NCBI GenBank assembly: GCA_947629245.1
Contig: CANRDC010000002.1
Coordinates: 1 to 64,000, forward strand
DNA from: an uncultured Oscillospiraceae bacterium
GTDB lineage: Bacteria > Bacillota > Clostridia > Oscillospirales > Oscillospiraceae
Direction: 5' to 3'
DNA: 64,000 bases
Shown here in pieces: positions 18,255 through 59,452 of the stretch (within the stretch, counting starts at the first letter, position 1; the number at the start of each line of letters is the position of its first letter). The translations under genes and the position numbers were made by a program. The notes beneath the pieces are model-generated. The model was not told the DNA's origin. It did not search any database and worked only from the letters and a program-made list of their open reading frames with translations.

Positions 18255-19249
18255 CTGAGTGCGAGATATTTATCGTTGTAGAATCCTGTGCGAGCTACGC
18301 TGATAGGCGCAAGGCTTGTCGGGCGACGTGGTGCCGACACGTCAAAGCTCCCATCAAGTACTTCTTTTTCATTGGTAATAATGATCCGCTTGGTTGTACA
18401 AGCATCAAAGAAGACGAACCGGACACAGTTATTCTTCCGTGTAAGGATGACTACATGTCATTGCCTAAAAAGACATTTTCCTGCTTTAAGTATGCATTAG
18501 AGAATTACGACTTCAAGTATCTCTTTAAGTGCGATGATGATACATTTGTTGTGCCTGAGAGGCTTCTGCATCTGAGTGAGCCGAAAGACATTGTATCCAA
18601 TAGCTGGCTTAATCAGCTATCCGGAGGCGCCGGTTACTTTTTGAGCAGAGACTGTGTACAGCGAGTTGTGAACGAGTGTCAGATTAAAATGCCTGCCGTA
18701 TGGGCAGAGGACCTGATGGTGCAGGAGATCCTTACAGAAAGATTCCATATGGAGATAAGGATGACACCCGAGTTCCACTGGGGCACCGACGGTGCATGGC
18801 CTGACCCGGATAATGCAAGGATAACAATTCATTATGCAGATTACGTTATCATGGAGGCGTGCGAGCATTTACTCTACGGATCCAATCTGGCTACATGCAA
18901 GGTCATGGTAGACGGCAAGAAGGACATCAAGAACTGTTGCTTCTATAAGTCAGACGTGACAGGACGCGTCATGTACGTCGTGAATAGCACGAAATACCGT
19001 GGTGTGTGTAGCTTAGACCATGCCGGGGCGCTTATTCTGGAGTATGACGAGGTCATCAAGGAAAAGGCAGACAATGGAGAGACGAAAAAGAGAAAGGAGC
19101 ATCATCTTATTCGACTCGTACCAACAGGGGATGGATATTGGGAGGATGATCGCTACGGACCGCTAGGAATTGTTACTCCGCTAGCTCCTGAAGTTTTTTT
19201 ACAAAATGACTTGCCTGCCAAGCAAGAAAGCGATATAGTCACGGCATGA
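18251..19249 (+). CDS. GT31-family glycosyltransferase (galactosyltransferase-like)
   Basis: 332 aa from ATG 18251, which overlaps the upstream stop (ATGA). The N-terminus has the family's RRKACRATWCR (compare RR-IR-TW). The metal-binding triad is FKCDDDTFV at about residues 91-99. LSGGAGYFLSRDCVQRVV (about 122-139) and AEDLMVQEIL (acidic catalytic region) follow in the expected order. GT31 includes beta-1,3-galactosyl- and N-acetylglucosaminyltransferases. The last about 110 residues are an extra charged domain I do not recognise. It is co-transcribed with the fused fucosyltransferase. Confidence 0.85.
   Translation: MTECEIFIVVESCASYADRRKACRATWCRHVKAPIKYFFFIGNNDPLGCTSIKEDEPDTVILPCKDDYMSLPKKTFSCFKYALENYDFKYLFKCDDDTFVVPERLLHLSEPKDIVSNSWLNQLSGGAGYFLSRDCVQRVVNECQIKMPAVWAEDLMVQEILTERFHMEIRMTPEFHWGTDGAWPDPDNARITIHYADYVIMEACEHLLYGSNLATCKVMVDGKKDIKNCCFYKSDVTGRVMYVVNSTKYRGVCSLDHAGALILEYDEVIKEKADNGETKKRKEHHLIRLVPTGDGYWEDDRYGPLGIVTPLAPEVFLQNDLPAKQESDIVTA
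19211..19239 (+). promoter_or_regulatory. Leaderless-type promoter for the lipoprotein gene
   Basis: TTGCCT (19211-19216), 17 bp, TATAGT (19234-19239), 6 nt, ATG 19246. It lies inside the end of the GT31 gene. Confidence 0.7.
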
Positions 19250-26027: not shown

Positions 26028-27418
26028 TGGCCCAGACAGATACAACATCAGACAGTGCAAAGATCATCAAGAACTACCTCATAGGCGGAGCTGCCTTAGG
26101 AGGAGGTGCTGCTCTTTTGACATCACTCATCAACTATATGAAGCATCTGAAGTCGAATGCTGAAGATTCTAGTGCAGATGATGATACTCTTTATGTCTAC
26201 AAGGATGCAGGAGTGCAGGAGAAGTCCGCTACGTGGGCTGCAACAGGTGTAGGTATAGCAGGTGGAACAGCAGCCGCTCTCGGTACCTATGCCCTCATCA
26301 ATAAGCTTTATACCATGTTCCGTGCTAAGGAAGCACAGGAAGAGCTTGATAAGGCTCAGCACGTGTTCCTCAATGCCCAGGGGTACAGGGACATCAATGA
26401 CAGGAAAAAGAAGAAAGCTGATGAGGCGCAGGATGTAGAAGATGGCGAACAGGAGAAGTCAGCTTCTGACGAGGGACGTCCGGCTTCTCTTCTTGAGAAC
26501 GTCACAGCTGCTCCTATAGCTTTGCCGTTGCTTCTTACTCTTGCTACAGGAATCGTGACTAACGAAGTGTTGAAGAGCAAGTACCCGACGCCGAAGCCGA
26601 AAGTGAAGCCTCCCAAGAGAATCGAAGTCGTGGATAAGCCAGCTGACGACCAGGACGAGTTTAAGTCTGCATCTGCCCAGGAATACATGGATGACGACGC
26701 AGGCGAGTTCCTCATCAGAATGGCGTTGGCTCAGCCCTGCCGCAACTCCGACCTCAACAACATCGTGAAAAACGCCGCCATGGGCGGACACATCGGTTTC
26801 AAGGACACCGTCATGACGGTAGGCTTTGGCCCGGCGCTCTCCATGGTAAAGGGTGCTTCTGTACAGATGCCGGATCCTTTGGCTGAGCATCTGGCGGTAT
26901 GCTGGCTCAACAAGTGCGCCCGTTTGAAGCACAACGTGCGTCTTGTAGCAGCCGGTGAGTTTGCAGAGCAGTATCCTGAGCTCTACAAGCAGGCCTGCAA
27001 CCTGCCTGAGCCCGTCAAGAAAGACCTCTACAAGATTGCAGGCATCCTTGGTGTGGCTATCCGCGCGGAGAGATCCCAGGAACTGGGAATCACAGCGGAC
27101 GAGAACAGCATCACCACGAAGCAGGCATCTGCCGGGCAAGAGGAGGACATCCTCGCGGAGCTACTCTCGGAAATCAATAAAAAAAAAGATGATGTAGCTG
27201 ATCCTACGGAGTCCGACCAAGCGGAGCCAGCTACAGAAGGCGATGAATATGAATCGACTGGGACTTCCGGAGAGGAAGCGGGTATAAGTGACCCTGATTC
27301 CCCATCCAGGCCAAGCCCAGAGAAAAAGCTCGACTTCGTGCGAGCAGGTAAAACCATGCGTCGATTCTCGAAAGGCGACGAGAACGACATCATAGATGAT
27401 ATATTATCAGCCAAGTAA
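26027..27418 (+). CDS. Large membrane-active virion-type protein, 463 aa
   Basis: Three hydrophobic stretches (about 15-38, 69-93 and 160-178; for example GGAALGGGAALLTSLI and GVGIAGGTAAALGTYAL) share the Gly/Ala-rich style of the two upstream proteins. Between them lie acidic segments containing repeated EKSA-type tetrapeptides (QEKSATW, QEKSASD, EFKSASA), which could be processing or interaction sites. The C-terminal 100 residues are acidic and Ser/Pro-rich. A role in genome ejection is inferred. Confidence 0.66.
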   Translation: MAQTDTTSDSAKIIKNYLIGGAALGGGAALLTSLINYMKHLKSNAEDSSADDDTLYVYKDAGVQEKSATWAATGVGIAGGTAAALGTYALINKLYTMFRAKEAQEELDKAQHVFLNAQGYRDINDRKKKKADEAQDVEDGEQEKSASDEGRPASLLENVTAAPIALPLLLTLATGIVTNEVLKSKYPTPKPKVKPPKRIEVVDKPADDQDEFKSASAQEYMDDDAGEFLIRMALAQPCRNSDLNNIVKNAAMGGHIGFKDTVMTVGFGPALSMVKGASVQMPDPLAEHLAVCWLNKCARLKHNVRLVAAGEFAEQYPELYKQACNLPEPVKKDLYKIAGILGVAIRAERSQELGITADENSITTKQASAGQEEDILAELLSEINKKKDDVADPTESDQAEPATEGDEYESTGTSGEEAGISDPDSPSRPSPEKKLDFVRAGKTMRRFSKGDENDIIDDILSAK

Positions 27419-28363: not shown

Positions 28364-28921
28364 ATGAATATACCTGCACCTATCCTGTTCACGCCCCCGC
28401 TTCTTTACAGCAAGATATGGGACAAAGCGCTCGTCGGGATTGCCCACAGCATGTCCGACAGGTTGGGGACACTGCCTGTTTACGACTGGACAGAGATTTG
28501 CCAGCTGGAGGCCAAATACAACACGAGCTTCAAGAAGGAGCAGAAGAAATGGGACGCGTCATGGGAGGACATGCCTCTGATTCTCATGGTGCGCAAGGAT
28601 ACACCGTCACTTCCAAGGATCCCCGACATGGAAGACGCCATTGAAGGCACAGGCTACTACCGTGTTCCCGGTGAGGCTGAATGTGTTATATACGACGTAG
28701 CCAAAGCTGTAAAAATATACGCCGAGGGAGATTATATTCTCAAGAATGGAAAGCAACCTGAATCTATCCTGACCCTGCTGGACGATAAAGAGTATATGAC
28801 ACAGATACTCAAGAAGGTGGAGGATAATTTCGTCTGGCTCGACCTCGGCGAAAATACACCTGCCTGGATTTATAAATGCCCGCCGCGGTATATTATTAAC
28901 GCCGGTGAGCGTCACGATTAG
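28364..28921 (+). CDS. Unrecognised protein, 185 aa
   Basis: ATG 28364 is set by the promoter. It is a soluble protein with an N-terminal Pro-rich segment (NIPAPILFTPPLLYSKI) and a mixed alpha/beta body. No family is recognised. It is divergently transcribed from ruvC. Confidence 0.7.
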   Translation: MNIPAPILFTPPLLYSKIWDKALVGIAHSMSDRLGTLPVYDWTEICQLEAKYNTSFKKEQKKWDASWEDMPLILMVRKDTPSLPRIPDMEDAIEGTGYYRVPGEAECVIYDVAKAVKIYAEGDYILKNGKQPESILTLLDDKEYMTQILKKVEDNFVWLDLGENTPAWIYKCPPRYIINAGERHD

Positions 28922-28934
28922 AAACAGGTAAATC

Positions 28935-28963
28935 TTGCACGCCCGGAAAGTGGATGGTAAAAT
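28935..28963 (+). promoter_or_regulatory. Leaderless-type promoter for 28970
   Basis: TTGCAC (28935-28940), 17 bp, TAAAAT (28958-28963), 6 nt, ATG 28970. Confidence 0.7.
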
Positions 28964-28969
28964 AGTCGC

Positions 28970-29761
28970 ATGGCAAGCGACACAGAATTGACACTATACA
29001 AGGCGGTATTGGAAACTCTCTGTCAGCCAGAAGCTTTAACAGCTCTTGGCACTGCTGTATTCGGATTAGGAGCCTATTTTAACAAGCGTGTGAAAAAGCT
29101 AATTAAAGGAGTCATAACCGCTCTGTACAAATTTGCTGTGGGCGGGGAGGAAAAAGAGCAAGAAGGATCTGACGGTGAGCCTCATGTTCTGACAGCTCAG
29201 TTCTCGCAGGACACCACCAGGATTCAGGACTACCTGGAAGAACTGCAAGACAGGCTGGACTGCGCACGCGTATCCATCCTGCAATTCCACAATGGGGCGC
29301 GCTTCTCCCTCTCCAATCCGGTATTTAAATGCAGTACGTCGTTTGAAGCCATCTCTGAAGGATTTGCCCCATCGTCTCCTATGATGAGAGACATGTTGGT
29401 ATCCATCTACACCACCTTCATCAGCCCGCTCATGCTCTCAACCGCCCCACCATTGCCCGGTGTGAAAGAAGAGCCGCTTTGCAAGAACCCGAATGGCGGG
29501 TGCCCGATTGTAGATGTGCCGCTGCGTATCATTTCCTATCGCCGGGACGACTTGCGTCCAGGCCCATTGAGAATCGTCATGCATGACCTCGGCATGGAGA
29601 AGATGTATGCCATTCTGTTATCCGTTCCTGATAAAGGACCTGTGGGGGTACTGACTATTCAGTACCATGACGAAACGGATGCTGATAAAATGATGACTGA
29701 GAATGCTTGCGAGCTTTGTAAGACCAAGCAGTACATTCAGTCCATCCTGTACAGACCATAA
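28970..29761 (+). CDS. Membrane-anchored GAF-like domain protein, 263 aa
   Basis: A short hydrophobic segment (TALGTAVFGLGAYF, about 24-37) followed by Lys-rich residues suggests a membrane anchor. After an acidic linker, residues about 85-250 look like a GAF-type sensor fold: RVSILQFHNGARFS, then a conserved Glu-containing YE/FEAISEG stretch, a CPI segment and a C-terminal GVLTIQYHD strand. The cytosolic domain may sense a small ligand, or be a structural adaptation of the fold. The start is set by a promoter 6 nt upstream. The GAF call is by pattern, not by alignment. Confidence 0.6.
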   Translation: MASDTELTLYKAVLETLCQPEALTALGTAVFGLGAYFNKRVKKLIKGVITALYKFAVGGEEKEQEGSDGEPHVLTAQFSQDTTRIQDYLEELQDRLDCARVSILQFHNGARFSLSNPVFKCSTSFEAISEGFAPSSPMMRDMLVSIYTTFISPLMLSTAPPLPGVKEEPLCKNPNGGCPIVDVPLRIISYRRDDLRPGPLRIVMHDLGMEKMYAILLSVPDKGPVGVLTIQYHDETDADKMMTENACELCKTKQYIQSILYRP

Positions 29762-29773
29762 GGGCATATTGCT

Positions 29774-30706
29774 ATGGCGGGATATAACATGATCAGTTCT
29801 ATTGACTACGAGGCCATCACGCCGTGGGATGGGTGTAAAGCGATTATTTATTCACGGCCAAGAATAGTCAAACCAACACTATCTGATACAGAAGTGCTTG
29901 AGCTGGTGATCGAAGTGCCCAAGGACAAGCAACAGGTGGACCTCGGGCAAGTATTGGCAGCGGGGGGGCGTAAGGATCCATCTATTGATGGAGGTAAGAT
30001 CTACTATGGTGACGGCACTGAAGCCTTTGAGTTTGGAGGCATGGAGCCTGTTGATTCTAAAGCATTTACTCACAAGTACGACACGGCCGGTGAGTACACC
30101 ATATCTATTACCGGCAAGATAGGCTGGTTCCTGAATGCCTCTAGTATAGCTCCAGCGGCCACGGAAGTAAGGAAGTTTCTCAAGGAAATCCGCGTACCGG
30201 AAGGCAAGACATCTCCGATCTATGCTATGGGGGACATGTATGCCTTCAACCACGCTGAGAAGCTCACGACGGTATCAGGTAATGTGTTCGAGCACTTGGG
30301 CTCCATGGTTAAGCTGACGAGATGCTTCATCTATTGCAAGAGTCTCGTATCGATACCGGACGCCCTGTTTGCGCCGCTTACCAAGGTCAAGGACTTCACA
30401 TCCTGTTTCTACAACTGCACAAGCCTCTCTGCTATCCCGGAGAACCTCTTTTCCACCTGCACTTTAGTGACAAGCTTTAACAGCTGCTTTGCCTATTGCA
30501 AGAATCTGCAATCCATACCGGAAGCGATATTTTCAGCTTGTCCTAAAGCAGTAAACTTTTACGATTGCTTCCGCACGTGTCTAAGCGTAACAGGAAATGT
30601 TCCCAGACTCTGGGAGACGCATTCCAAGGCCACCAACCACAGTAGCTGCTTTGAAGGCTGCACAAAAGCTTCGAATTATGCGGACATACCTGAAAACTGG
30701 AAGTGA
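29774..30706 (+). CDS. PKD plus leucine-rich-repeat adhesin, 310 aa
   Basis: After about 40 residues comes a PKD-like domain (KIYYGDGTEAFEF then HKYDTAGEYTISITGKIGW). It is followed by BspA/DUF285-type leucine-rich repeats of about 25 residues with the pattern IPxxLFxxCTxVxxFxxCFxxC, and a conserved ending LWETHSKATNHSSCFEGC. The module recurs in five other genes of the window, which look like tail-fibre or tail-tip receptor-binding proteins. A G7 tract (29962-29968) lies in the AAGGRKD codons near the start. A one-base slip there would truncate the protein. Confidence 0.78.
   Translation: MAGYNMISSIDYEAITPWDGCKAIIYSRPRIVKPTLSDTEVLELVIEVPKDKQQVDLGQVLAAGGRKDPSIDGGKIYYGDGTEAFEFGGMEPVDSKAFTHKYDTAGEYTISITGKIGWFLNASSIAPAATEVRKFLKEIRVPEGKTSPIYAMGDMYAFNHAEKLTTVSGNVFEHLGSMVKLTRCFIYCKSLVSIPDALFAPLTKVKDFTSCFYNCTSLSAIPENLFSTCTLVTSFNSCFAYCKNLQSIPEAIFSACPKAVNFYDCFRTCLSVTGNVPRLWETHSKATNHSSCFEGCTKASNYADIPENWK
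29962..29968 (+). repeat. Poly-G tract (7 G) in LRR adhesin gene
   Basis: Seven consecutive G lie in codons for Ala-Gly-Gly-Arg of the 29774 gene. The present length keeps the frame open. Gain or loss of one G would close it. Confidence 0.6.
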
Positions 30707-30728
30707 CAAGCCACCATTAACACAGGGC

Positions 30729-30757
30729 TTGCAATCCTTTTCTGATGCTGTTAAACT
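30729..30757 (+). promoter_or_regulatory. Promoter for the abundant-looking structural gene
   Basis: TTGCAA (30729-30734), 17 bp, TAAACT (30752-30757), then a roughly 24-nt A/T-rich leader to ATG 30782. This gene, unlike many others here, has a leader. Confidence 0.6.
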
Positions 30758-30781
30758 AATCTAAAAGTAAACATTTTCACT

Positions 30782-32419
30782 ATGGCTAACACTACTAACT
30801 ACACCATGACAAGAAATCTTATAGACAACATGGATAATGTTGGCGCACTTTGTGCCATCATTCGCTCACTGCCCATTGGAGAAGGTGGCGGCTCGACACT
30901 GAAACCCATTACACCTGAAGATTATCCGGTTGATGGCGGCGCCGTTGCCGAAGAGGGAACCACCGTCACGAGCAAGATCTACGAGAGTAAGGAGGAAGGA
31001 GTTGATTACTTGATCAAGACCTCCGTCTCTGCTGCCGGAGCATCTCTTGAACCCAAAGGCGTAACACCCCAGCCCGGTAACGAGAGCGGAGCCGTACGCT
31101 ACGTCATCGACAGCTTCTGGGAGAGACCTTCCGAGGAAGTGACGAAATACGAAGTGCAGCCTGATGGAACTAAGGCTTGGATGAAGTCCAACGTCGACAC
31201 CCAGGGCGACAAGAAAGGCATGCGCATCCACCGCGAGATGCTCAAGCCCGGCAAGAAAGACATCAACGTCCTTGTGAAGTGGGAGAAAGCTACGGACGAA
31301 GTAGTTTCCACCGTTCGCATCCAGGCTGACTACTCCAACGTCAAACTCGCGGACTACGAGGTAACGGTCAGCGCTCTTGAGACGAGAGACGAAGGCAAGC
31401 TCGTCCTGAAGCTCGACAAAGCTCTTCCTGAATTCATGGAGTACACCATCGCCGGTACGGAGCCGGGAGGAAAAGCCCTCTCCGTGAAAGCCACGGCGGA
31501 CGGTCTTAAGAAAGACATCGTCGTAGCCGACAGCCCGGCAGACGGCGCCTACAAAGTGGCTTCCTTGACGGCTGAGCACCTGAGCGTCACCGGCCTTCCG
31601 CTGGTGTCCGCCGCAGCCCCTGAGACCACTTCCCTGGTGAAGGGCGCTAAGATGACCACGACTGCTACCCCCTCTGCTAAGGCGGGCATTGACTACGAAG
31701 TCACCGTCGACGTGACGAACGATAACGGCGAGCCCAAACTCGCTGCCACCGTCTCCGGTGCAGGTTCCGGTGATTCTAAAACTATGGGCTACTGGGTGGG
31801 CGTAGGATTTGAGGCCCCGGATGGCGCTACCAAGCTTGAGTTCAAGCGCAGCGATGCCGCCGACTTCAAGACCCAGGAAGCGCTCGACAAGTTCAGCGGC
31901 AAGCAAGGCTTCACCTCTTGGGGCAACGCCGTGACGAGCCCCTCCATCGGCTACACCATCAAGTGGGAGAAAGAAGATGGCACCGTCGTAGAGACGAACG
32001 AGTACAGCATCTCGCTCTCCGACCTCGGGTGCACCCCGCTTTCCGTGACCGCTACGGTCACCAAGACCGATGACAATAAAGTGAAAGTGACGCTGGACAA
32101 AGCCGCGCCCGTCAAAACCACTGTAACGGTTACGGACGAGACGGCTAGCCAGACCAAGACCTTCACAAGCGATGGCAAGGTCAAAGAGTTCACACTGGAC
32201 ACCGCGCTGGCGGATGAGTCCGAGCATACCATCAAAGTGGAAGGTACTCACATCACCGTCACCTCTTCTGACCTCAAGGTGAGTAAAGCCGCACCCGTTG
32301 CATTAGCAGCCGCTACCAAGATAGCAGCTACGCCGACAGCGACCGCTGCTAATACCACAGCTAAGAAGGCCACAGCTAAGAAAGCTTCTACTAAGAAGAC
32401 AACAACTCCCGAAGCATAA
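30782..32419 (+). CDS. Probable major structural protein with repeated beta-sandwich domains, 545 aa
   Basis: It has its own promoter and a strong terminator (32479-32514), with codons restricted to a few C- and G-ending ones, as in highly expressed genes. At least two Ig/fibronectin-like domains repeat: KLVLKLDKALPEFMEYTI (about 206-223) and KVKVTLDKAAPVKTTVTV (about 434-451), each followed by a strand ending in LSVTG/ITVTS. The C-terminus is an Ala/Lys/Thr tail (KKATAKKASTKKTTT). No capsid fold is recognised. It could be a head-decoration, tail-tube or other high-copy surface protein. Confidence 0.7.
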   Translation: MANTTNYTMTRNLIDNMDNVGALCAIIRSLPIGEGGGSTLKPITPEDYPVDGGAVAEEGTTVTSKIYESKEEGVDYLIKTSVSAAGASLEPKGVTPQPGNESGAVRYVIDSFWERPSEEVTKYEVQPDGTKAWMKSNVDTQGDKKGMRIHREMLKPGKKDINVLVKWEKATDEVVSTVRIQADYSNVKLADYEVTVSALETRDEGKLVLKLDKALPEFMEYTIAGTEPGGKALSVKATADGLKKDIVVADSPADGAYKVASLTAEHLSVTGLPLVSAAAPETTSLVKGAKMTTTATPSAKAGIDYEVTVDVTNDNGEPKLAATVSGAGSGDSKTMGYWVGVGFEAPDGATKLEFKRSDAADFKTQEALDKFSGKQGFTSWGNAVTSPSIGYTIKWEKEDGTVVETNEYSISLSDLGCTPLSVTATVTKTDDNKVKVTLDKAAPVKTTVTVTDETASQTKTFTSDGKVKEFTLDTALADESEHTIKVEGTHITVTSSDLKVSKAAPVALAAATKIAATPTATAANTTAKKATAKKASTKKTTTPEA

Positions 32420-32478
32420 CAACGCGAACAAACAGTAAGCCAGCATGAGGAAGACATGTTGGTTAATTTTCATGGTCA

Positions 32479-32514
32479 GGTGCGGATGTCTGCTAGCATC
32501 CGCACCATTTTTTT
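32479..32514 (+). terminator. Rho-independent terminator
   Basis: ggtgcggatg (32479-32488) pairs perfectly with catccgcacc (32497-32506) around an 8-nt loop, followed by seven T. Confidence 0.92.
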
Positions 32515-32570
32515 ACATATACTCCCATATTAAACTAGCAAATACCAATCGCCTGTGCTAGTATAAAGCT

Positions 32571-33164
32571 ATGCCGTACGCTGACGAAGCACCCAAGACC
32601 CAGAAAGTCGTAGCCAAGCTTCCCAAGCCCAAACACTGGGAAGAATATACTACGCGAGAAAGCGCCGTTTTCCAGCCCATCAGAGCCGTACTGCAAGTCA
32701 TCCTCGAGAAAGACGGCGACCCCGTGCCCTACGAACTCTACCTGCGCGCCCCAAACCCTGACGCCGCCATGTGGTGTGCTTACGAGGCATTCAAGGCTTG
32801 GGAGCACCCGGAGGAATACTTGCAAGACAAGGACACCGAAGAAGGCTTTCATCAGCGCATGGACCTCTTCCCACAGATATATGTGGAGCAGGACCCGCCG
32901 AGCATGGGATACAAGATCACGGAGGACGAATGGGAAGAGGCATTACGGGACGCCAAACGACTCTCCCGGCAACTGGCAGGCTACAGGCTACGCATTGCAG
33001 GCATGCCTGAAAACCCCACCCTCTTCCGCCTTGAACGCCCCGGATGGAAGGATGTGAACCGCCACCAGTTCGGGGGAGGCAAAAAGATCCTCATGCCAAG
33101 CGACGAAGCAATCAAAGCAATCCAGGCAAGAAAGAACTACATCGACAGTAAAGCAAGCAAATGA
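32571..33164 (+). CDS. Unrecognised protein, 197 aa
   Basis: ATG 32571 lies 6 nt after a TAGTAT -10 (32559-32564); the -35 at 32536 is weak. The protein is charged and soluble, starting with a basic Pro-containing segment (KVVAKLPKPKHWEEY). No family is recognised. It overlaps the next gene by 4 bp. Position just before the fibre genes suggests a baseplate or tail role. Confidence 0.7.
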   Translation: MPYADEAPKTQKVVAKLPKPKHWEEYTTRESAVFQPIRAVLQVILEKDGDPVPYELYLRAPNPDAAMWCAYEAFKAWEHPEEYLQDKDTEEGFHQRMDLFPQIYVEQDPPSMGYKITEDEWEEALRDAKRLSRQLAGYRLRIAGMPENPTLFRLERPGWKDVNRHQFGGGKKILMPSDEAIKAIQARKNYIDSKASK

Positions 33165-33388
33165 CCGAAGCCCTCGAATCCTCTCTCGACCACGCATGGT
33201 TCCGACTCCACGCGAAATACCCAAATGTCTCCAAGGTGTTCTACAGTCAGCGTGGAGACAAGCTGCTCCTTGGTATGGACATCAAAGGGCACTACACGCA
33301 GGCCCTGATACCCGTGCACAATTTCTCCGACAAGGAGAAAGCCTGGGACACCGTGGAATACTTTCTGACCACCTACTGCAATGCCTGA
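33161..33388 (+). CDS. Small protein, 75 aa
   Basis: It overlaps both neighbours (ATGA upstream, 8 bp downstream). It is a mixed alpha/beta sequence with no membrane segment. No family is recognised. Its place immediately before the phase-variable fibre gene suggests a chaperone or adaptor role, but nothing shows this. Confidence 0.62.
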   Translation: MTEALESSLDHAWFRLHAKYPNVSKVFYSQRGDKLLLGMDIKGHYTQALIPVHNFSDKEKAWDTVEYFLTTYCNA

Positions 33389-33575
33389 AAGCACCTGGCC
33401 AGGTACCGTAGGACCCAAGGATGTTCCCAACGAGCTGAAACATCTTCCCGGCTTCGTGGTGACGTCCTATGGCAATGAGGTGAACTGGCTTGATGAGGAT
33501 GACATGAAAAACCTCGATGAGATCCTGGCGGATCTTGACAACATCCTGGCAGGTCATCCTGGTGGGGGGGGGTAG
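33381..33575 (+). CDS. N-terminal module of a tail-fibre-like gene, closed off at a G9 tract
   Basis: 64 aa as sequenced. MPESTWPGTVGPKDV opens a short domain ending in a helix (MKNLDEILADLDNILAG) and then HPGGGG, where a run of nine G (33564-33572) leads into TAG. The +1 frame (from the base after this frame's) carries on the same Gly/Ser linker and the LRR adhesin up to 34878. With eight or eleven G the two would be one protein of about 498 aa. The 64-aa piece is thus probably the virion-attachment end of a switchable fibre. Confidence 0.68.
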   Translation: MPESTWPGTVGPKDVPNELKHLPGFVVTSYGNEVNWLDEDDMKNLDEILADLDNILAGHPGGGG

Positions 33576-34878
33576 TTCTGGCGGTGGAGGCGAATCCGGC
33601 GGCGGAAGTGAATCAGGAGGAGGGGAGGAACAAAAGCCGATAGATGAGGAGCCTGTTGAGGGCGGAGGTGAGATGTGGTTAACGATTGAGACCACTGAGG
33701 ATGATGAATTGGTTGATTTATGCCAGTGTTTAAGAGGGTCTTCTAGGAATAAAGAAGTTATTGGAGGCCGTATTGACTGGGGAGATTCTAGTAAAATTAT
33801 ATACTTTAAGAAGGGGAAGACTTATCCTGATGCTCAGTTTCAGCATAAGTATAAAACGCCTGGCGAGCATATAATAAAGATCGGAGGTAAGATTGTATGG
33901 AGTAAACAAGGTAGTAGGACTAGGCCTGCTAAGGATGCGAGAAGAGTGTTGAAGATAATCACCATCCCGGAAGGTCAGGAATCTCCTATTTATGACATTG
34001 GCTATTATGCTTTTTACTGGGCACGAAAGCTTACTACAATTCCAGGAAATTTATTTGAGCATTGTACAGCAGTGGATTATTTGTTTGGTACTTTTTGGGG
34101 ATGCAATCAACTCAGTACAATCCCGGAAAACTTATTTGCGAGTTGTTTAAAAATGCAAAGCGTTAGTGATGTTTTTTGTGACTGCGAGAGATTAGCCACG
34201 ATCCCAGACAAGTTATTCGAGAAATGTACAGGCTTAACGGCATTTGATCAAAATTTTGTGGGTTGTACTGGAATCATTAGCATACCGGAAAGTTTGTTTA
34301 CGAATTGCACACAATTAAGGTATATAAGGGGTAATTTTTATAATTGTACTGGGCTGACTACAATTCCAGAAAATTTATTTGAAAACTGCACAGAATTAGT
34401 TTCACTTGAGGGTAACTTTCAGGGATGTTCCAATCTAGCTACAATACCAAAAGATTTATTTAAGAATTGTACGAAAGTGACGGACTTCTCGACTTGTTTT
34501 AGTGAGTGTGCTAACAAAGAAATTCCCAGTGAGCTTTTTGCACGTTGTCCTGAGGTAACAGATTTTTATGGCTGTTTTAGAAGTAATAAAAAGCTTACTG
34601 CAATCCCAGCAAATTTGTTCTCGACTTGCACAGAAGTGACAACTTTCGAAAGTTGCTTTGAGAGCTGCCCAAACATTACTGCGATTCCAGAAAATTTATT
34701 TGCTAATTGTAAAAAAGTAACAACCTTTCGTTGGTGCTTTTGCGATTGCACGAATATAGTTAGTGCAGTTCCAAGACTATGGGATACTCATAAAGCAACA
34801 GTTACAGAGGCTACCCAATGCTTCAATGATTGCACTAAGGCCTCTAATTTCGGCGAGATACCTGAGGATTGGAAGTAA
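33517..34878 (+). CDS. PKD plus leucine-rich-repeat adhesin, C-terminal module of the phase-variable fibre
   Basis: The frame is open from 33517 (453 aa), but its first 20 residues are an out-of-frame reading of the upstream gene. As sequenced, translation could start at ATG 33673 (MWLTIETTEDDELVDL, matching MELLIETTSDGQVVDL at 35200). The linker GGGSSGGGGESGGG is followed by a PKD-like domain (GRIDWGDSSK ... HKYKTPGEHIIKIGGKI) and about ten LRRs of the IPENLFxxCTxxxxF type. AT-rich codons differ from the GC-richer neighbours, hinting at separate acquisition. Likely a receptor-binding tip. Confidence 0.75.
   Translation: MRSWRILTTSWQVILVGGGSSGGGGESGGGSESGGGEEQKPIDEEPVEGGGEMWLTIETTEDDELVDLCQCLRGSSRNKEVIGGRIDWGDSSKIIYFKKGKTYPDAQFQHKYKTPGEHIIKIGGKIVWSKQGSRTRPAKDARRVLKIITIPEGQESPIYDIGYYAFYWARKLTTIPGNLFEHCTAVDYLFGTFWGCNQLSTIPENLFASCLKMQSVSDVFCDCERLATIPDKLFEKCTGLTAFDQNFVGCTGIISIPESLFTNCTQLRYIRGNFYNCTGLTTIPENLFENCTELVSLEGNFQGCSNLATIPKDLFKNCTKVTDFSTCFSECANKEIPSELFARCPEVTDFYGCFRSNKKLTAIPANLFSTCTEVTTFESCFESCPNITAIPENLFANCKKVTTFRWCFCDCTNIVSAVPRLWDTHKATVTEATQCFNDCTKASNFGEIPEDWK
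33564..33572 (+). repeat. Poly-G tract (9 G) at fibre module junction
   Basis: Nine G followed by TAG in the 33381 frame. Eight or eleven G would join the 33381 frame to the LRR frame. It has the position and length of known slipped-strand phase-variation tracts. Confidence 0.8.
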
Positions 34879-34880
34879 TC

Positions 34881-34909
34881 TTGCTAGACAGTTAATTCTT
34901 TGCTATAAT
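34881..34909 (+). promoter_or_regulatory. Leaderless-type promoter for 34916
   Basis: TTGCTA (34881-34886), 17 bp, TATAAT (34904-34909), 6 nt, ATG 34916. The -35 begins just after the stop of the upstream adhesin. Confidence 0.75.
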
Positions 34910-34915
34910 GGCTGC

Positions 34916-35200
34916 ATGCCAATTAAAACGGATAAGCTCTTTGTCAACGAGAAGGAATTGATCCTCGTTAAGACCTCGGATGACATACCGGCAGGCGGAG
35001 GTACGCCTCTGTTGACACTGGAGGAGCATATGAAGCTGGCAAAGTATCTGCGCGACAGGCAGACCTGGATTGCCGTGGCAGATGCGGATGCGGGAGGAGG
35101 CACAGGGACGAATCCTGGAGGCACGACTGGCGGGACAACCGGTGGTGAAGGAGGAGGAGAAACTGATCCTGGAGATGACCCCATTGCTGGGGGGGGGTAA
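34916..35200 (+). CDS. N-terminal module of a second fibre-like gene, closed off at a G9 tract
   Basis: 94 aa from ATG 34916, set by the promoter. MPIKTDKLFVNEKEL resembles the MPI starts of the genes at 45614 and 46492. A helix (LTLEEHMKLAKYLRDR) and a Gly/Thr-rich linker follow, ending in DDPIAGGG and TAA directly after nine G (35189-35197). Ten G (or seven) would fuse it in frame to the LRR protein at 35200, which now starts on the ATG overlapping this stop (TAATG). The two proteins may be coupled, fused or separate depending on tract length. Confidence 0.72.
   Translation: MPIKTDKLFVNEKELILVKTSDDIPAGGGTPLLTLEEHMKLAKYLRDRQTWIAVADADAGGGTGTNPGGTTGGTTGGEGGGETDPGDDPIAGGG
35189..35197 (+). repeat. 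Poly-G tract (9 G) at second fibre module junction
   Basis: Nine G followed by TAATGG. Ten or seven G would read through into MELLIETTSD of the LRR gene. Confidence 0.8.
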
Positions 35201-36012
35201 TGGAGTTATTGATTGAGACTACGAGTGATGGGCAGGTTGTGGATCTCGGGAAGTGCTTGGGTGGAACTTCCAGGAATTCAGAAGTAGTTGGAGGGACAAT
35301 CGATTGGGGGGATGAGAGCAGCACTGTAAAGTTTACAAATGGGGAGTATACTACTAATACGAAGTTCAGGCATACCTACACTAATCAAGGGGAACACACA
35401 ATAAAGATTAGTGGGAAGATTGGATGGGGGTGCAGCTTTGTAAGCTCTGGGGATGCTACTTTAGCAAGTAATGATATAAGAAAAGTATTAAAAGAAATTA
35501 TTATCCCGGAAGGTAAAGTATCACCAATTTATGATATTGGAATTTATGCTTTTCATTATGCGGCTAAATTAACATCTATTCCATCAGGTCTATTCGACAA
35601 CTGCACTCAGGTGACGACTTTTAGTTATTGTTTCGATTACTGTACCTCCCTCACATCTATTCCATCAGGCCTATTCGACAACTGCACTCAGGTGACGAGT
35701 TTCAGTTCTTGTTTCTACTATTGCACCTTCCTCACCACTATTCCATCAGGCTTATTTGACCATTGCACTCAGGTGACGACTTTCCATTCTTGTTTCGCCG
35801 ACTGCACCTCCCTCGCCTCCATTCCATTAGGCTTATTCGACAACTGTACCCTGGTGACGAGTTTCTATATGTGTTTCTTTGAGTGCAGATCTATAATTAG
35901 TGAAGTTCCAAAGCTTTGGGAAACGCATTCGAATGCTGAATACACGCACCAGTGTTTCTACAGGTGCACCAGCGCCGTCAATTACTTCTTCATCCCAGAA
36001 GCCTGGCGATAG
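35200..36012 (+). CDS. PKD plus leucine-rich-repeat adhesin, 270 aa
   Basis: The PKD-like domain (GTIDWGDESSTVKF ... HTYTNQGEHTIKISGKIGW) comes first, then four LRRs encoded by near-identical 81-bp DNA repeats (35572-35895), then the conserved ending LWETHSNAEYTHQCFYRC. Variable residues between repeats concentrate at the exposed positions of TxFxxCFxxCT. The ATG overlaps the stop of the upstream module. Likely a receptor-binding tip. Confidence 0.78.
   Translation: MELLIETTSDGQVVDLGKCLGGTSRNSEVVGGTIDWGDESSTVKFTNGEYTTNTKFRHTYTNQGEHTIKISGKIGWGCSFVSSGDATLASNDIRKVLKEIIIPEGKVSPIYDIGIYAFHYAAKLTSIPSGLFDNCTQVTTFSYCFDYCTSLTSIPSGLFDNCTQVTSFSSCFYYCTFLTTIPSGLFDHCTQVTTFHSCFADCTSLASIPLGLFDNCTLVTSFYMCFFECRSIISEVPKLWETHSNAEYTHQCFYRCTSAVNYFFIPEAWR
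35572..35895 (+). repeat. Four 81-bp in-frame tandem repeats
   Basis: Units start at 35572, 35653, 35734 and 35815. Each encodes one 27-residue LRR. DNA identity is far higher than between LRRs of the neighbouring genes, and changes cluster in the codons after gtgacgas and after tgttts. This suggests recent expansion and potential copy-number change. Confidence 0.88.
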
Positions 36013-36035
36013 CCAGCCATACCCTTTCCATTGTT

Positions 36036-36896
36036 ATGCGAATAGAAAACATAGGATACCTGAATACATTGTTGTATAGCCTGCCGGACGGGCGCCTCGT
36101 AGCGGCCCCGATCATGCCGTCAGACACTGAATATAAATACTCAGCATCCAGATGCCGGGTAACAGCCAAGGGCGAGCTTATTAAGCACAAGAAGTACACC
36201 TACTTCATCAAGCCGCCCACCTATCATGAAATCACCAGCGCACAGTACAGAAAAGCAGCGCGAGCAAACAAGCGCTTCCTTGACAAGAAAGTATGCGGGC
36301 ATGGAAAGCCGGATGTGATCTGGCCTGTAGGCTCTACGCAATTCTGGACGTACTGGCTACTCTGTGCCGTCAAGCGCGGCGCCAAGGTCATCCGCTTCTT
36401 CTACGGCGGAGACCCATTCACCCATAAGGAATTGCATTTCAACTTCATGGGATTTCTCTTCGAGTTCGCCTGCATGAAGACGGACAACAAGATATTCCAC
36501 GAGATCAAGAACCGTCTCCAGTACAGTTTCCTCAAGCCTGACTGGGACGTCATAGGTGATCTTACCGAGTTCCCGGAAGACATCCAGATCCACATCTGGA
36601 CGGCGAATACGGAAGACATCAACAGCATGAATACGTACATCTGGGATCTGGATAACGGAGCATTGAGAAACTCCATAGCTATTATCAGCGAGACCCAGTC
36701 GTACTTGGACCTTCCGTTGTTCTGTCCTTACCGCGTCATCTATTGCTGGGAGGAAGAAGACATGGAAGGAGCCATCACAGAAATGGAGGTCGCCCCGAAG
36801 ATGGGACTCGACCCCCATGGATTTGAGAAACAGGAATGGAAGGTAAAGCTTCCTAAAGGCGCCTGCGACTTGTGGCGCCAAGGTACTGAAAAATAG
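36036..36896 (+). CDS. Unrecognised protein, 286 aa
   Basis: ATG 36036 is chosen; the frame extends upstream into the adhesin. It has a basic N-terminal third (YRKAARANKRFLDKKV) and a mixed alpha/beta remainder with many Trp and Phe. KVIRFFYGGDPF and AIISETQSYLDLPLFC could belong to an alpha/beta nucleotide-binding or phage-metabolic fold, but no family is assigned. Confidence 0.7.
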   Translation: MRIENIGYLNTLLYSLPDGRLVAAPIMPSDTEYKYSASRCRVTAKGELIKHKKYTYFIKPPTYHEITSAQYRKAARANKRFLDKKVCGHGKPDVIWPVGSTQFWTYWLLCAVKRGAKVIRFFYGGDPFTHKELHFNFMGFLFEFACMKTDNKIFHEIKNRLQYSFLKPDWDVIGDLTEFPEDIQIHIWTANTEDINSMNTYIWDLDNGALRNSIAIISETQSYLDLPLFCPYRVIYCWEEEDMEGAITEMEVAPKMGLDPHGFEKQEWKVKLPKGACDLWRQGTEK

Positions 36897-36908
36897 TACC
36901 GTACGTGC

Positions 36909-36988
36909 GCTATATATAATTGAGGGGTAGCCCGTTAATTACGACGGGCTCCGACCCTCATAACTCAATCTAGATTGAATTATATATT
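36909..36988. promoter_or_regulatory. Hairpin-rich control region upstream of 36995
   Basis: A TATATATAATTG element is followed by a nested hairpin (gaggggt-agcccgt ... acgggct-ccgaccctc) and then the palindrome tcaatctagattga with ATTATATATTG. A similar TATATAATTG-plus-hairpin arrangement precedes the gene at 40201, suggesting a shared regulatory design. Confidence 0.55.
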
Positions 36989-36994
36989 GTTATT

Positions 36995-38029
36995 ATGCAA
37001 AACAATACCAACGACAAGGCCCATAAGGGGACAAGCAATAAGGGTAATAACAACAACAACGACAACACATTCTGTGTGCCGCTGATAGCTGGAGTAGTTG
37101 ACATGCCGGTGTTTGGAGCGTCCAAGACATTCATGCACGTCATGTCGATTGCTGGATTGAAGCACATTCAGGAAGATGGCAGCAGCCGTCTGGAGATCCT
37201 GTATGTCTTCGGAGAACCGGAGCTCGAAAGAGCGCTCAACCGCCAACCAGGACATCGCTCTCTCCCGGCTCATTCGGAGGGGTCAGTGAAGATGTTCTCA
37301 TTCAAGAAGTTCAATCGCTTCAAGAGAGTGCAGCCTGTTGTGATCAACATGCAGCGCATTTATCGCGATGGAAAAGAGAAAGCCGACCTGCACCTGCGTG
37401 TAGGTGTGATCTGCGCGAACAAGCGTGGACGTTATCACGTTAATAACGATACAGTTACCAGCGCGGATAACTATGAAATCCACGTATGGAAAGTTCGCGA
37501 CACCAAGATGATTGATTCCATGAACGCATTCTGCCAGACTGAGATGTGGGTGCCGAAATCCTACATCGTGAAAGAGTCTGACGGCAATGGCGGAACAATC
37601 GATATCGAGGTGGATCACCCGATCGCACATGCCATCTCCACCGGGGAAGCCAGGATCGAATTCGGAGACGAATCCGATGAGCAGCTCGTAAAGGCCGCTA
37701 GCAAGCCCGTGAAGGCGTCTGCACCTGCCAAGAAGGTAGAGACAGCCAAGAAGGAGGAAACGGCCCCTGTGGACCGTTCTGGACTCGTTTTGGACGACAG
37801 GACGATCCAGATGGTGAACCAGGCATTGTTCCGCTACGGACTCAATGTCTCGGTGGACGTCCTGAGAAATCAGGTCGTGGTGCACCGGGTAGTGAAGAGC
37901 GCACAGCGTGCAAAGCGCAGTGAGCAACCGGCAGAGCCGGAGCTGGTGAATCGGGAATTGGAAGCTGAGATGGGCAACGTAGGAAGCCATCTCGGATCCA
38001 TCCTGGACAAGGCTGTGGCCGCCAGCTAA
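36995..38029 (+). CDS. Unrecognised two-domain protein, 344 aa
   Basis: The N-terminus is Asn-rich and disordered (NKGNNNNNDNTF). A globular domain spans about 28-225. A Lys/Ala linker (KASAPAKKVETAKKEE) leads to a small C-terminal helical domain. Layout and control (long leader hairpin, strong terminator) suggest an abundant protein, perhaps DNA-binding. No family is recognised. Confidence 0.7.
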   Translation: MQNNTNDKAHKGTSNKGNNNNNDNTFCVPLIAGVVDMPVFGASKTFMHVMSIAGLKHIQEDGSSRLEILYVFGEPELERALNRQPGHRSLPAHSEGSVKMFSFKKFNRFKRVQPVVINMQRIYRDGKEKADLHLRVGVICANKRGRYHVNNDTVTSADNYEIHVWKVRDTKMIDSMNAFCQTEMWVPKSYIVKESDGNGGTIDIEVDHPIAHAISTGEARIEFGDESDEQLVKAASKPVKASAPAKKVETAKKEETAPVDRSGLVLDDRTIQMVNQALFRYGLNVSVDVLRNQVVVHRVVKSAQRAKRSEQPAEPELVNRELEAEMGNVGSHLGSILDKAVAAS

Positions 38030-45504: not shown

Positions 45505-45548
45505 ACATTTCTGTTGGTGTACATTATTGGTTGTTATGGTGACGGCGT

Positions 45549-49400: not shown

Positions 49401-51516
49401 GTTTACGTGGAATGGTGAGGCCGAGAATGAGGCATTCAAGAAGGCGCTGAAGTATGTAAAATTGAATGACAAGGCAGAGACATGCCCCGTATTCCACGCG
49501 AAGCAGGCATTTAAGAACTGTGTAAACTTGGTGGAGCTAACGAACAGATTCTTCGAGAACTGCGACACAATCACCGACATGTCTTACATGTTTTCGGGGT
49601 GTGAGAAGCTTCAGTTCAGTTTTTCGTTGGCCGAAGGCAACCACACGTTCAAAGCATTGGGAATGGTGACGACCTTCGACTACTGTTTTGAGGGAGTCAA
49701 AGGATGTGCTGATCCAAATTACCCGTTGCAAAACTTTGACCATCTTTTCGATCCATGCATTCGGGCGACGAGCTTTATTGGCTGCTTCAAGGGAGCCTAT
49801 GTAGGATTCACGACAGATATATTCGCGCATTGCACGAGCGCGCAGACATTTGAATCCTGTTTTGAGAATGCTACATTTATTTTCACCAACGCCAGCGATA
49901 CGCCCTCCTTTATTCCCAGAGATCTCTTCTCCAAGTGTATTGTTGCGTCCAATTTCACGAAATGCTTTGCTGGTATCACCATAAATGGCGGAGCGGAGGA
50001 GATACAGCCAGAAATCTACCTCCAGGAAGAACTGTTCTTACAGAACCAACATCTTGCCAACCTCACGAGTTGCTTTGAAAATGCGCAATTAAAACCGGGA
50101 TCCAACCTCCCTCAGCTCTGGAACACACATCATGATGTTATCCATGAGAATTGTTTTGCCGGATGCTTCACAGCAGGCAACTATGCGACAGCCGCTTATG
50201 CCGGATGGGCAGGATTTGAAGCGCCTGTCACCTTCATGGAGCTCCAGGTAGCAGTAGGCGAACCCATGATGTCGGAAAGCGGCGGCAATGAGATAGGAGG
50301 CGATGGAAGTGCGCCGCCTCATATATCGACCGGAGACGACCTGTCAGTGGATTTGGCTGATCTTATTCCATTACTGCAAGACAATCAACAGTACGAGTTT
50401 AACCACCCCGTAGAAGATTGGACTGAGTTTAAGCACACCTACTCCTGTATCTACGTGAACTATGGTGAAAGTGATGCTGACACGACCCTGCACGACACGC
50501 GTCTTGAGGAGGCTGAGGCACTGAAGCACACGTATGCCGAGAAAGGCTACTATGTCATCACCATAGGCGCCCTGAAAGGCGGCAGTGCGAACAACTTTGA
50601 TGTCGACTACGAAACGGAGGAGTGGAACAAGGGATTGCACCTGCAGAAGAGTGAAGTAGAGCATGGCGTCAAAGGGCGAATCACTCATATACGCATACCT
50701 CTCGGCGCAGATGCCAGCCCGGTCTGCGAATGCGAAAACGACGTCTTCCAGGATACGCCCGGTCTTTTGCGCGTAGAAGGACCTCTTCTTGGCAGCATTG
50801 AGCTCACATCTGGTGACTTGAGTGGTTTGTTCGCCAATCGTCCGTGGCTTACGACTGTAGGGGACGACCTTTTTGAAGGAGTAGGCGCGGATAATATCAT
50901 GAATATAACCGGCATGTTCCGGAATTGTTCGGCATTGGGCAACCTTGATCTGACGCAGTTGTTCAAGCCATTGAAGTATGTGACAGATGTCGCCTACTGT
51001 TTTGCCAGCTCGTCGATTGCGTCTGTACCTGAGGGAACATTTGCGGAGAACACGATGCTCAGTACTGTTGCAGGATGCTTTGCCAACTGCATGAACATCA
51101 CGGAGATCCCGGCAGGAATCTTCACGAAAGAAGCGAACTCTTATATTGACGACTTTACCGACTGTTTCCTTGGCTGCATGAATGTAAAGGGAGCTCTGCC
51201 GACATGGTGGGAGGATTGGCCGGAGGCTGATGGGGAGAACTGCTTCACAGGATGCTTCGAAACAACAAATTATGACGAGGCCGTAGAACATAACTGGGCT
51301 TTGGGCTTAGGTCGGATTGAATTGACCGTGGAGACGACGCAGCCCAACGAGACGGTCAACCTTGGCAAGTACTTGGGGAATATGATATCCGATGTTGAGG
51401 CCGGCTTGACTGGGTGGATCCAATATGAGGAGGACCAAGTGGTAGAGGTTATTCCGCCGGACCCAGATCCTGACCCAGATCCTGATCCTGATCCCGATCC
51501 AGACCCTGAACCGTAG
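46492..51516 (+). CDS. Giant multi-module PKD/LRR tail-fibre-like protein, 1674 aa
   Basis: The N-terminal about 460 residues are beta-rich and probably attach to the virion. Three PKD-plus-LRR modules follow. PKD cores: TIDWGDDSEITTIK (about 505), GVIDWGDKNVEDEN (about 924), and a third with a degenerate core near 1310-1360. LRRs have the IPANLF/FxxCFxxCT pattern, and each module ends with a short linker of the W-x-x-F/W type. The C-terminus is a (DP)n tail (DPDPDPDPDPEP) encoded by a hexanucleotide-like repeat, ending at TAG with the same frame continuing 16 codons beyond. Likely the main host-contact fibre. Confidence 0.78.
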   Translation: MPIGTKADEETHNGEGFSTTLGKNTFRHELTDPAKINLEEGLRIPQLSALESSKLFDLLEDGAVEIVDPPLTDATIGDEGTEALANVGWIKLDVSVLPKKGMKLRTISTYAKSVSNAPSKYLALYALNDYDPKTCTLPEGGKDKVLLGVSTTTQVAESEQTDGLYKFTWTFKNKIYVPELTTLGIYFASTVRTTDWPNPNPQAKDCTMPVVGISDKARIGESGIWGQNTTPGFYLPGVSYIEMLPRVSFGVIGGAELTHDVLINEDAMEHSKTAEVVCVFIEQNAIPDGIIGGISLSAAPEYTEGKKIRAVVMAVSMPEIPEGVLVNRTLYLLEEGLISSPMVSTNYVEIKENAHPKWWMFNFEPFVVPKDAAGIRITFIESDTDEAPVFDGNDLRELQAAPTMPLLVNSLAHESVGRFTVTTDGTPDNFTTEYVCPAVQFAIYDEYQMAVELTPWEDVPPPLAPEVSGLELVVKIDNSNLQLNLQNIIQAVSPEDFGVNEPIQFYATIDWGDDSEITTIKSDKKGIFNLDYDENDPASVEAALKRTASHSYLAEGTYTIRIGGIIPWRAEHSQLDSHPYSCLCTSLVEIRKVPMAQSPVHLWITQNKEFKAGLFQNYTRLTTVGENIFENAQESYFDFDHAFANTAIATLPAHIFDVFSAGNNRPASFAYCFENCRSLITLPDRLFYYCDGSTSFYRCFAGCIKLQEIPSALFENCWTADQSIYAPENLEKISQDTSLKIYKTGFNECFDGCTSLTSIPANLFPDSGSEGGPFQFYSTFANTGITSIPEELFSKTRGHIFRSCFTNCTNLVDIPSTLFDYLQSTELEGLHTDEFDFAFCFKGCTAVESLLPEVWTRFPNAQHTMCYCDCEFAVNYDDAIKAEWACPRVKKPGLDVTIELTEDNTEIDLGPVLIKYAKTVKISGVIDWGDKNVEDENDNLVGFNGDPERAEKWKHTYTKAGKYVIGLSGRFTWNGEAENEAFKKALKYVKLNDKAETCPVFHAKQAFKNCVNLVELTNRFFENCDTITDMSYMFSGCEKLQFSFSLAEGNHTFKALGMVTTFDYCFEGVKGCADPNYPLQNFDHLFDPCIRATSFIGCFKGAYVGFTTDIFAHCTSAQTFESCFENATFIFTNASDTPSFIPRDLFSKCIVASNFTKCFAGITINGGAEEIQPEIYLQEELFLQNQHLANLTSCFENAQLKPGSNLPQLWNTHHDVIHENCFAGCFTAGNYATAAYAGWAGFEAPVTFMELQVAVGEPMMSESGGNEIGGDGSAPPHISTGDDLSVDLADLIPLLQDNQQYEFNHPVEDWTEFKHTYSCIYVNYGESDADTTLHDTRLEEAEALKHTYAEKGYYVITIGALKGGSANNFDVDYETEEWNKGLHLQKSEVEHGVKGRITHIRIPLGADASPVCECENDVFQDTPGLLRVEGPLLGSIELTSGDLSGLFANRPWLTTVGDDLFEGVGADNIMNITGMFRNCSALGNLDLTQLFKPLKYVTDVAYCFASSSIASVPEGTFAENTMLSTVAGCFANCMNITEIPAGIFTKEANSYIDDFTDCFLGCMNVKGALPTWWEDWPEADGENCFTGCFETTNYDEAVEHNWALGLGRIELTVETTQPNETVNLGKYLGNMISDVEAGLTGWIQYEEDQVVEVIPPDPDPDPDPDPDPDPDPEP
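51463..51513 (+). repeat. Asp-Pro-encoding short tandem repeat
   Basis: Repeated gatcct/gaccca hexamers encode the DPDP tail of the giant fibre protein just before an amber stop. Such hexamers can change number without shifting frame. Confidence 0.8.
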
Positions 51517-58915: not shown

Positions 58916-59452
58916 ATGGCTAAGATCATCATCGACATCGGACACGCGGACAAGACTGGCGCACGCAGTCTGGACGGAAAACACGAAGAGCATAACCTCT
59001 GCACCGGCATCGGAGCGCTGGTTATCGCCAAATTGACCCGTATGGGCCACGAGGTAATACGTCTGGACTTCCCCCACCTGAACAACCGGGATGACCTCAA
59101 CAAGACTATTTCTGAGGCCAACAAGATCTCGGGAGTGAAGCTGGGTGTATCGCTCCACATGGACGCAGCGGATTCTGCCTCTGCCAAGGGAGCGCACATC
59201 TGTTACCTCACCTCATCCGGCAAGACAGCGGCTTCCCACATCGTCCCGGAGCTCGCCAAACTTCTGCCCGGACGTGCAGAGCACATGGTGAAGCGGACGA
59301 ACCTGGCCGTCCTGAAGCAGACGAAAGCCCCGTGGATTCTTATCGAGTGTGGATTCATCACCAACCCGCATGATTGCGACATCGCCGTCAACCAGACCGG
59401 AACACTAGCCGAAGTTATTGCTAATGGTATAGACGCGGCTGTCAAAGCGTGA
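58916..59452 (+). CDS. N-acetylmuramoyl-L-alanine amidase endolysin (Amidase_3)
   Basis: 178 aa. IIIDIGHADKTG opens the zinc amidase with its first His. Glu in HEEHNLCTGIG, the second zinc His in VSLHMDAAD and the catalytic Glu in LIECGFITNP are all present. The enzyme cuts the bond between muramic acid and L-Ala in peptidoglycan and would lyse the host. No signal peptide or cell-wall-binding domain is present, so a holin is expected. The small membrane proteins at 41-43 kb are candidates. It has its own promoter, and its stop overlaps the next start (GTGA). Confidence 0.9.
   Translation: MAKIIIDIGHADKTGARSLDGKHEEHNLCTGIGALVIAKLTRMGHEVIRLDFPHLNNRDDLNKTISEANKISGVKLGVSLHMDAADSASAKGAHICYLTSSGKTAASHIVPELAKLLPGRAEHMVKRTNLAVLKQTKAPWILIECGFITNPHDCDIAVNQTGTLAEVIANGIDAAVKA

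Follow-up and report, generated by a model that had tools for sequence, protein, structure and literature searches.

Paired poly-G tracts at two phage adhesin junctions as candidate slipped-strand contingency loci

Phase variation through poly-G tracts is a bacterial device, used among other ends to escape phages, and diversity-generating retroelements vary the tail adhesins of phages. The adhesin gp38 of T-even phages bears polyglycine, and we know of no frame junction at a G run either in gp38 or in the fibers of phage DT57C. Two such junctions are described here. They lie in the window, the whole stretch of DNA that was analyzed, which comprises bases 1–64000 of contig C2 (136,400 nt) from a metagenome-assembled genome (MAG) of an uncultured Oscillospiraceae bacterium; the bin holds 3.08 Mb in 146 contigs. 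In each of two successive cassettes, a run of nine G residues (G9) stands between a short N-terminal module and an adhesin made of a PKD-like domain and leucine-rich repeats (LRRs).

Poly-G phase-variable genes are described in Campylobacter (PMC10877375), and an intragenic G-tract in the pilus clusters of Bifidobacterium breve (PMC9187656). As far as the accessible text of these papers goes, the present cassettes resemble those loci in that a poly-G tract in a coding region determines in which frame a gene for a surface structure or adhesion is read. They differ in being phage-borne, in occupying two adhesin genes arranged in tandem and in their position at a linker/domain junction, where the short form ends at once; and their variation is something we infer. 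Switching of phage adhesins by DNA inversion is reported for Mu and P1 Cin (PMC6286511, accessible part). Phage-coded variation of a tail adhesin is shared with those systems, but the poly-G mechanism proposed here needs no recombinase, and no inverted repeat of 18 nt or more, as expected of an invertible tail-fiber segment, occurs in 28800–37000. Isolates of phage MMNM differ by poly-G indels in an intergenic region and in a non-virion hypothetical gene; in the accessible part of that report (PMC11633184) the tract length thus differs between phage preparations, but not at an adhesin switch. T-even gp38 and DT57C LtfA/LtfB (PMC4728585, as far as its accessible text describes them) are modular adhesins, Gly-rich or two-protein, as here, yet unlike them the domains in this phage are PKD-like and LRR. 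A homopolymer-switched phage adhesin was not found among the matches listed in a search of open-licence PMC papers. What is novel is the phage-coded, paired poly-G adhesin junctions; poly-G phase variation itself is known from bacteria.

The features of the two cassettes and of a related gene are as follows.

33381–33575, plus strand: N-terminal module 1, 64 residues, closing with Gly codons at the tract, followed by TAG (open reading frame (ORF); codon log-odds).
33564–33572, plus strand: G9 tract 1 (sequence), with TAG directly after it at 33573–33575.
33573–33672, plus strand: Gly/Ser/Glu linker, whose adhesin frame is open and looks coding (codon log-odds).
33673–34878, plus strand: PKD-like and LRR adhesin domain 1 (Pfam LRR_5, E 1.2e-20; phrog_9915, E 3.2e-89).
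34881–34909, plus strand: promoter-like TTGCTA-17-TATAAT with TG ahead of it, 6 nt 5′ of the ATG of module 2 (promoter scan).
34916–35200, plus strand: N-terminal module 2 with Gly/Thr linker, 94 residues, closing at G9-TAA (ORF; codon log-odds +22.5).
35189–35197, plus strand: G9 tract 2, then TAATG (sequence).
35200–36012, plus strand: PKD-like and LRR adhesin 2, 270 residues (phrog_9915, E 1e-29).
29774–30706, plus strand: third paralogous adhesin, 310 residues, its own N-terminus and the adhesin domain in one unbroken frame (phrog_9915, E 7.8e-26).

The first-pass annotation of this DNA had placed a G9 directly before the TAG that closes the frame of the 64-residue module, and had another frame carry the linker into the PKD/LRR protein. 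Both points hold. The 453-residue adhesin ORF, 33517–34878, is in a different frame from module 1. Over 33381–33563 the codon-usage log-odds are +22.2 in the module frame, and −37.5 and −62.2 in the other two; over the linker, 33573–33672, the adhesin frame scores +6.8, the module frame −49.9 and the third frame −1.5; and the LRR part of adhesin 1 scores +35.8 in the adhesin frame. Since the log-odds switch frames there, the frame change of cassette 1 is located at the G9. None of the 33 linker codons that follow the tract in the adhesin frame, up to the ATG at 33673, is ATG, GTG or TTG (there is only an ATA at 33640), so translation that enters the linker from upstream accounts for it best. 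Upstream of the tract, the adhesin frame has an ATG at 33517 and a TTG at 33535, both within the coding region of the module, and a GTG at 33562, which ends on the tract's first G.

The second G9, in the next cassette, had been missed by that annotation. ORFs and codon log-odds again place a change of coding frame at the tract: adhesin 2 scores +19.5 in its own frame, and the remaining frames of modules and adhesins score −34 or lower. The TAA of module 2 overlaps the ATG of adhesin 2 (TAATG). Adhesin 2 carries 81-nt LRR repeats (found by Tandem Repeats Finder (TRF) at 35572–35865), with an LRR_5 score below the Pfam cut-off. Both cassettes show two marks of a homopolymer phase-variable locus, namely a long run in a coding region and a frame that differs across the tract.

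These two are the only G/C runs of nine or more in the 136 kb of C2. The tracts are probably of separate origin, because they lie at different distances from the start of the homologous domain (100 nt in cassette 1, 2 nt in cassette 2) and are set within unlike linkers. The register of the adhesin frame relative to the module also differs between the cassettes.

The comparison of the two adhesin domains used the first 125 codons of each, 121 of which aligned, as the synonymous divergence (dS) is saturated over the entire domain. The nonsynonymous divergence (dN) is 0.38 and dS 1.77, a ratio of about 0.21, by which both domains have been kept functional by purifying selection since the paralogues parted. 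The split copies are thus not old pseudogenes. No further stop interrupts the 401 downstream codons of adhesin 1 or the 270 of adhesin 2.

On this evidence the two junctions are, in our judgment, probably slipped-strand contingency loci that decide which adhesins are tethered to the virion. Slipped-strand mispairing at the G tract during replication of the phage DNA would shift the register. In the ON state the adhesin would be made as a continuation of the module and so be tethered to the virion; in the OFF state the module would end at its stop, and the adhesin would be absent or be a free protein made from its own ATG. The sequenced consensus would then have caught both cassettes in the split state. 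The unbroken paralogue at 29774–30706 would presumably always be displayed, and a population would hold mixed sets of adhesins. The proposal supposes variation in tract length, anchoring by the modules, receptor binding by the adhesins and a benefit against varying host surfaces. A phase switch had been predicted at the first tract. The anatomical part of that prediction stands and is extended by the second G9, the frame changes at both tracts, the purifying selection and a poly-G enrichment given below; length variation and a change of display are still predictions.

Several lines bear on the predicted surface location of the products. A tblastn search with the adhesin matched 60 phage records, all below 60% identity, and the matches listed (30 of the 60 records) include Klebsiella and Escherichia phage proteins that are annotated as tail proteins. 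In the window, the protein of 51625–53604 combines LRRs of this type with a phrog_5302 'tail protein' domain (E 4.4e-35). With the LRR_5 and phrog_9915 matches, these tail-protein relatives and the tail-domain paralogue would fit an adhesive surface product. Among the 41 distinct sequences of solved LRR binding proteins that the LRR profile hits at E ≤0.01 are variable lymphocyte receptors and repebodies, a likeness of repeat type. The label 'PKD-like' is a putative one, drawn from a 1674-residue protein at 46492 that matches both the adhesin profile and PF00801. Within the genome, 14 of the 15 matches to adhesin 1 are on C2, and a weak one is on contig C32. An attachment role is presumed for modules 1 and 2, neither of which has a PHROG match at E 0.01. 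A 22-residue anchor motif shared by the two modules and the proteins at 45527 and 46492 scored strongly on its own members, but gave leave-one-out indices of 121, 194, 10 and 36 and was rejected; nor did module 2 align with the start of the 46492 protein. The LRR part of the 51625–53604 protein is a possible variable receptor-binding domain, and the unbroken adhesin holds an in-frame G7 at 29962–29968.

Contig C2 matches the large terminase subunit TerL (phrog_675, E 1.2e-20), a UvsX-like recombinase (phrog_97) and, weakly, a portal (phrog_64, E 0.0044), and encodes an RNA polymerase beta-type fragment (Rpb2_3). These matches identify it as a tailed phage, and it is large and divergent. The 77 nt at the right end of C2 recur exactly at the left end of contig C12 (42,597 nt), and the composition-corrected tetranucleotide agreement of the two is 0.91–0.95, compared with 0.42–0.54 with three other bin contigs. 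We therefore treat the two as a single phage, at least 178.9 kb long. C12 encodes a beta′-type fragment with intein matches, a family A DNA polymerase with a UDG domain, a Toprim protein and an SMC-type ATPase.

Whether poly-G is here by chance was approached in several ways. GGG accounts for 52 of the 581 Gly codons in the Gly pairs and runs of the phage, a count from which the two tract-bearing runs had been left out beforehand and in whose ORF set module 2 was absent. Three successive GGG codons occur in two of 73 Gly-triplet windows, which are tracts 1 and 2, against an expectation of 0.052 (Poisson P 0.0013); this set consisted of 183 called ORFs and module 2, added by hand, with the pre-tract part of ORF 33517 dropped. 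Markov models expect 0.13–0.53 G/C runs of nine or more in C2 and 0.03–0.10 in C12, where two and three are observed. In the whole bin, 7 of the 16 G/C runs of eight or more (P 1.6e-5) and 5 of the 10 runs of nine or more (P 1.3e-4) fall in the phage, which makes up 5.8% of the sequence. The placement of both tracts is a stronger argument than these run counts.

Other observations weigh against a switch. When Gly codons are shuffled synonymously with genome-average use, 0.745 runs of nine or more are expected in 125 C2 genes (without module 2) and one is observed, so that composition alone leaves one tract explicable; for runs of eight or more in the same genes, 2.63 are expected and one is observed. 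Each adhesin has an ATG at its domain start, after GGAGGTGAG in cassette 1 and within TAATG in cassette 2, which fits separate translation. Because each has its own plausible start, the free adhesins may be normal products. The dN/dS ratio is an average since the duplication, and gives no date for the frame split. Stops at adhesin borders are not peculiar to poly-G, since an in-frame TAA at 53602–53604 that no homopolymer accompanies lies 6 nt ahead of the ATG that starts the LRR protein 53611–54378. Likewise, an Asp-Pro repeat linker at 51460–51513 (TRF period 12/6) closes in TAG at 51514–51516 with no adhesin after it; this Asp-Pro repeat stops after the start of another PKD-like domain.

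A homologous cassette was not found elsewhere in the viral contigs, genome contigs and genomes scanned, some of which sets may lack records very near the window's own genome. Viral contigs yielded no close relative to module 1, adhesin 2, the portal, LRR profiles A1 and A2, TerL or the DNA polymerase as queries; A1 and A2 recovered 3 and 7 distant LRR loci there. TerL and A2 gave nothing in genome contigs, and the portal, A2 and TerL had their own genome as the sole match in 300, 394 and 398 genomes, respectively. The adhesins match the sequence family of phrog_9915 and BspA-type LRR phage proteins, and none of the ten distant LRR loci, which come from IMG/VR, has a G/C run of seven or more at the adhesin, with one locus (L100) cut off upstream and some being near-copies of one another. 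Runs (G/C of at least seven or A/T of at least nine) occur in three of the ten (L034, L095 and L099), outside the LRR frame. A DNA pattern of Gly-type codons followed by G9-TA was found in 58 stretches of viral contigs. The run is exactly nine in 4 of these and at least 15 in 54; as such long runs dominate and many lie near the end of a stretch, most of the 58 look like artefacts, and inspection of frames and short peptides recognized no comparable adhesin junction among them.

Recoding is the first of the other explanations. RNA polymerase slippage or ribosomal frameshifting on an invariant G9 would give a constant ratio of short to long products. G9 is plausibly slippery and the frames are maintained on either side; the accessible part of PMC3711429 attributes frame transitions of this kind to programmed frameshifting, phase variation or translational coupling. 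The different registers, however, mean that no single fixed-direction ribosomal frameshift serves both cassettes. One defined direction could hold in each cassette alone, and transcriptional slippage can give both signs. RNA folding near the tracts is ordinary, with z of −0.6 to −1.3 in four stretches by a model that leaves pseudoknots outside, and shows no unusually stable structure of the kind that stimulates some programmed frameshifts. We regard recoding as unlikely.

Alternatively, the module and adhesin may be two proteins that assemble non-covalently, the adhesin being translated through its own Shine-Dalgarno sequence in cassette 1 and through stop-start coupling at TAATG in cassette 2. 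The ATGs in their contexts fit this, as does the LRR protein at 53611–54378, which likewise begins just past a stop, and two-protein fibers are known from DT57C (PMC4728585, accessible part). It leaves unexplained the 33 linker codons after tract 1, the long Gly/Thr tail of module 2 and the presence of G9 at both junctions. The Met at the domain start may itself be structural, since the alignment column at this start holds M or L in the paralogues and, judged by eye, has M, L or I in the 1674-residue protein. Two separate proteins are quite unlikely in our view.

Surplus adhesin copies could also be decaying or mosaic, with indels at a mutable but functionless run disrupting them. The plain stop at 53602–53604, the Asp-Pro linker that ends in TAG and the duplicating LRR repeats would suit such a history. 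It is poorly reconciled with 401 and 270 downstream codons free of other stops, with the dN/dS ratio, with the scarcity of GGG in other Gly runs and with two separately placed G9s, and we hold it to be very unlikely. Weakest is an artefact of assembly or base calling, with true tract lengths that differ and continuous genes: the tract lengths come from the consensus of one MAG assembly and homopolymers are error-prone, but the 77-nt overlap of C2 and C12 points to short-read de Bruijn assembly (presumably with k=77), such assemblies usually call nine-base runs well, and an A9 at 27179–27187 does not break its ORF, so we give this account scarcely any credence.

The slipped-strand reading may extend to other poly-G runs of the phage. 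Its seven G/C runs of eight or more comprise the two coding tracts, four in −35/−10 spacers 6–7 nt before an ATG, and an intergenic one. Three of the four such runs on C12 sit in promoter spacers; the fourth, C12:7513, is intergenic with no promoter recognized. Spacers with a G run of at least six are the following.

C2:133620 (133592–133620), minus strand: poly-G spacer of 17 nt.
C2:134328 (run 134311–134318), minus strand: poly-G spacer of 15 nt.
C12:1539 (1539–1574), plus strand: poly-G spacer of 24 nt.
C12:2969 (2943–2969), minus strand: poly-G spacer of 15 nt.
C12:7296 (7269–7296), minus strand: poly-G spacer of 16 nt.
C12:2125 (run 2107–2113), minus strand: poly-G spacer of 17 nt.

Four of the six genes that follow share an MNT or MST start and a KQA-like motif, the first residues being partly selected because the search pattern itself required ATGA[AG][CT]. 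Similar sites free of poly-G precede the genes at C12:8121/8127 and C2:87556/87565, as well as module 2. Against a promoter role, TTGC-GGGG-TATAAT occurs in nine places of the bin, four in the phage and five on other contigs (two for the reversed control). Promoter-like sites in 28800–37100 as a whole number 10, not above the 8.8 expected from shuffles. The varied spacer lengths fit transcriptional phase variation, and they would equally be expected if the phage's own RNA polymerase had a fixed preference. It is a possible but tentative extension, which we would not favor at present, that poly-G contingency is genome-wide, with coding tracts choosing the tethered LRR adhesins and spacer tracts of variable length, in near-leaderless promoters, setting the expression of a small-protein family whose starts are MNT...KQA-like.

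Long G/C runs were also seen on contigs C31, C57 and C8, which the phage does not resemble in composition. C31 has runs of G21 and G13 in acyltransferase-3 ORFs and C9 in a methyltransferase ORF (L011 3678–3698 and 7507–7515; L012 2467–2479); C57 has a C11 near the end of an ORF that by eye resembles a sugar-nucleotide enzyme (L013 8003–8013); and C8 has a G9 ahead of a 1092-residue ORF (L009 4559–4567). These ORFs are likely phase-variable surface genes of the host.

No tRNAs were found in C2 or C12. Intein-like insertions appear in the window at 28–1935, 15616–16755 and 61980–63869, in a helicase (Hom_end match) and, by eye, in the RNA polymerase beta-type protein and in TerL, and the beta′-type protein of C12 has LAGLIDADG and intein matches. 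A cytidylyltransferase (CTP_transf_3) and several glycosyltransferase-like ORFs (by eye), in the window at 56474–58870, 16758–19249 and 59449–61996, suggest sugar modification by the phage.

If the slipped-strand reading is true, the phage answers surface variation of its host with a bet-hedge of the same kind, one that works without a recombinase. The homopolymer would be the sole mark of the switch, and a switch so marked is easily missed, or 'corrected', in annotation. A homopolymer exactly at the linker/adhesin border of a split ORF gives a signature to search for in other phages, and switching can be decided from metagenome reads. Were poly-G contingency genome-wide as well, one phage lineage would spread across many receptor and expression states.
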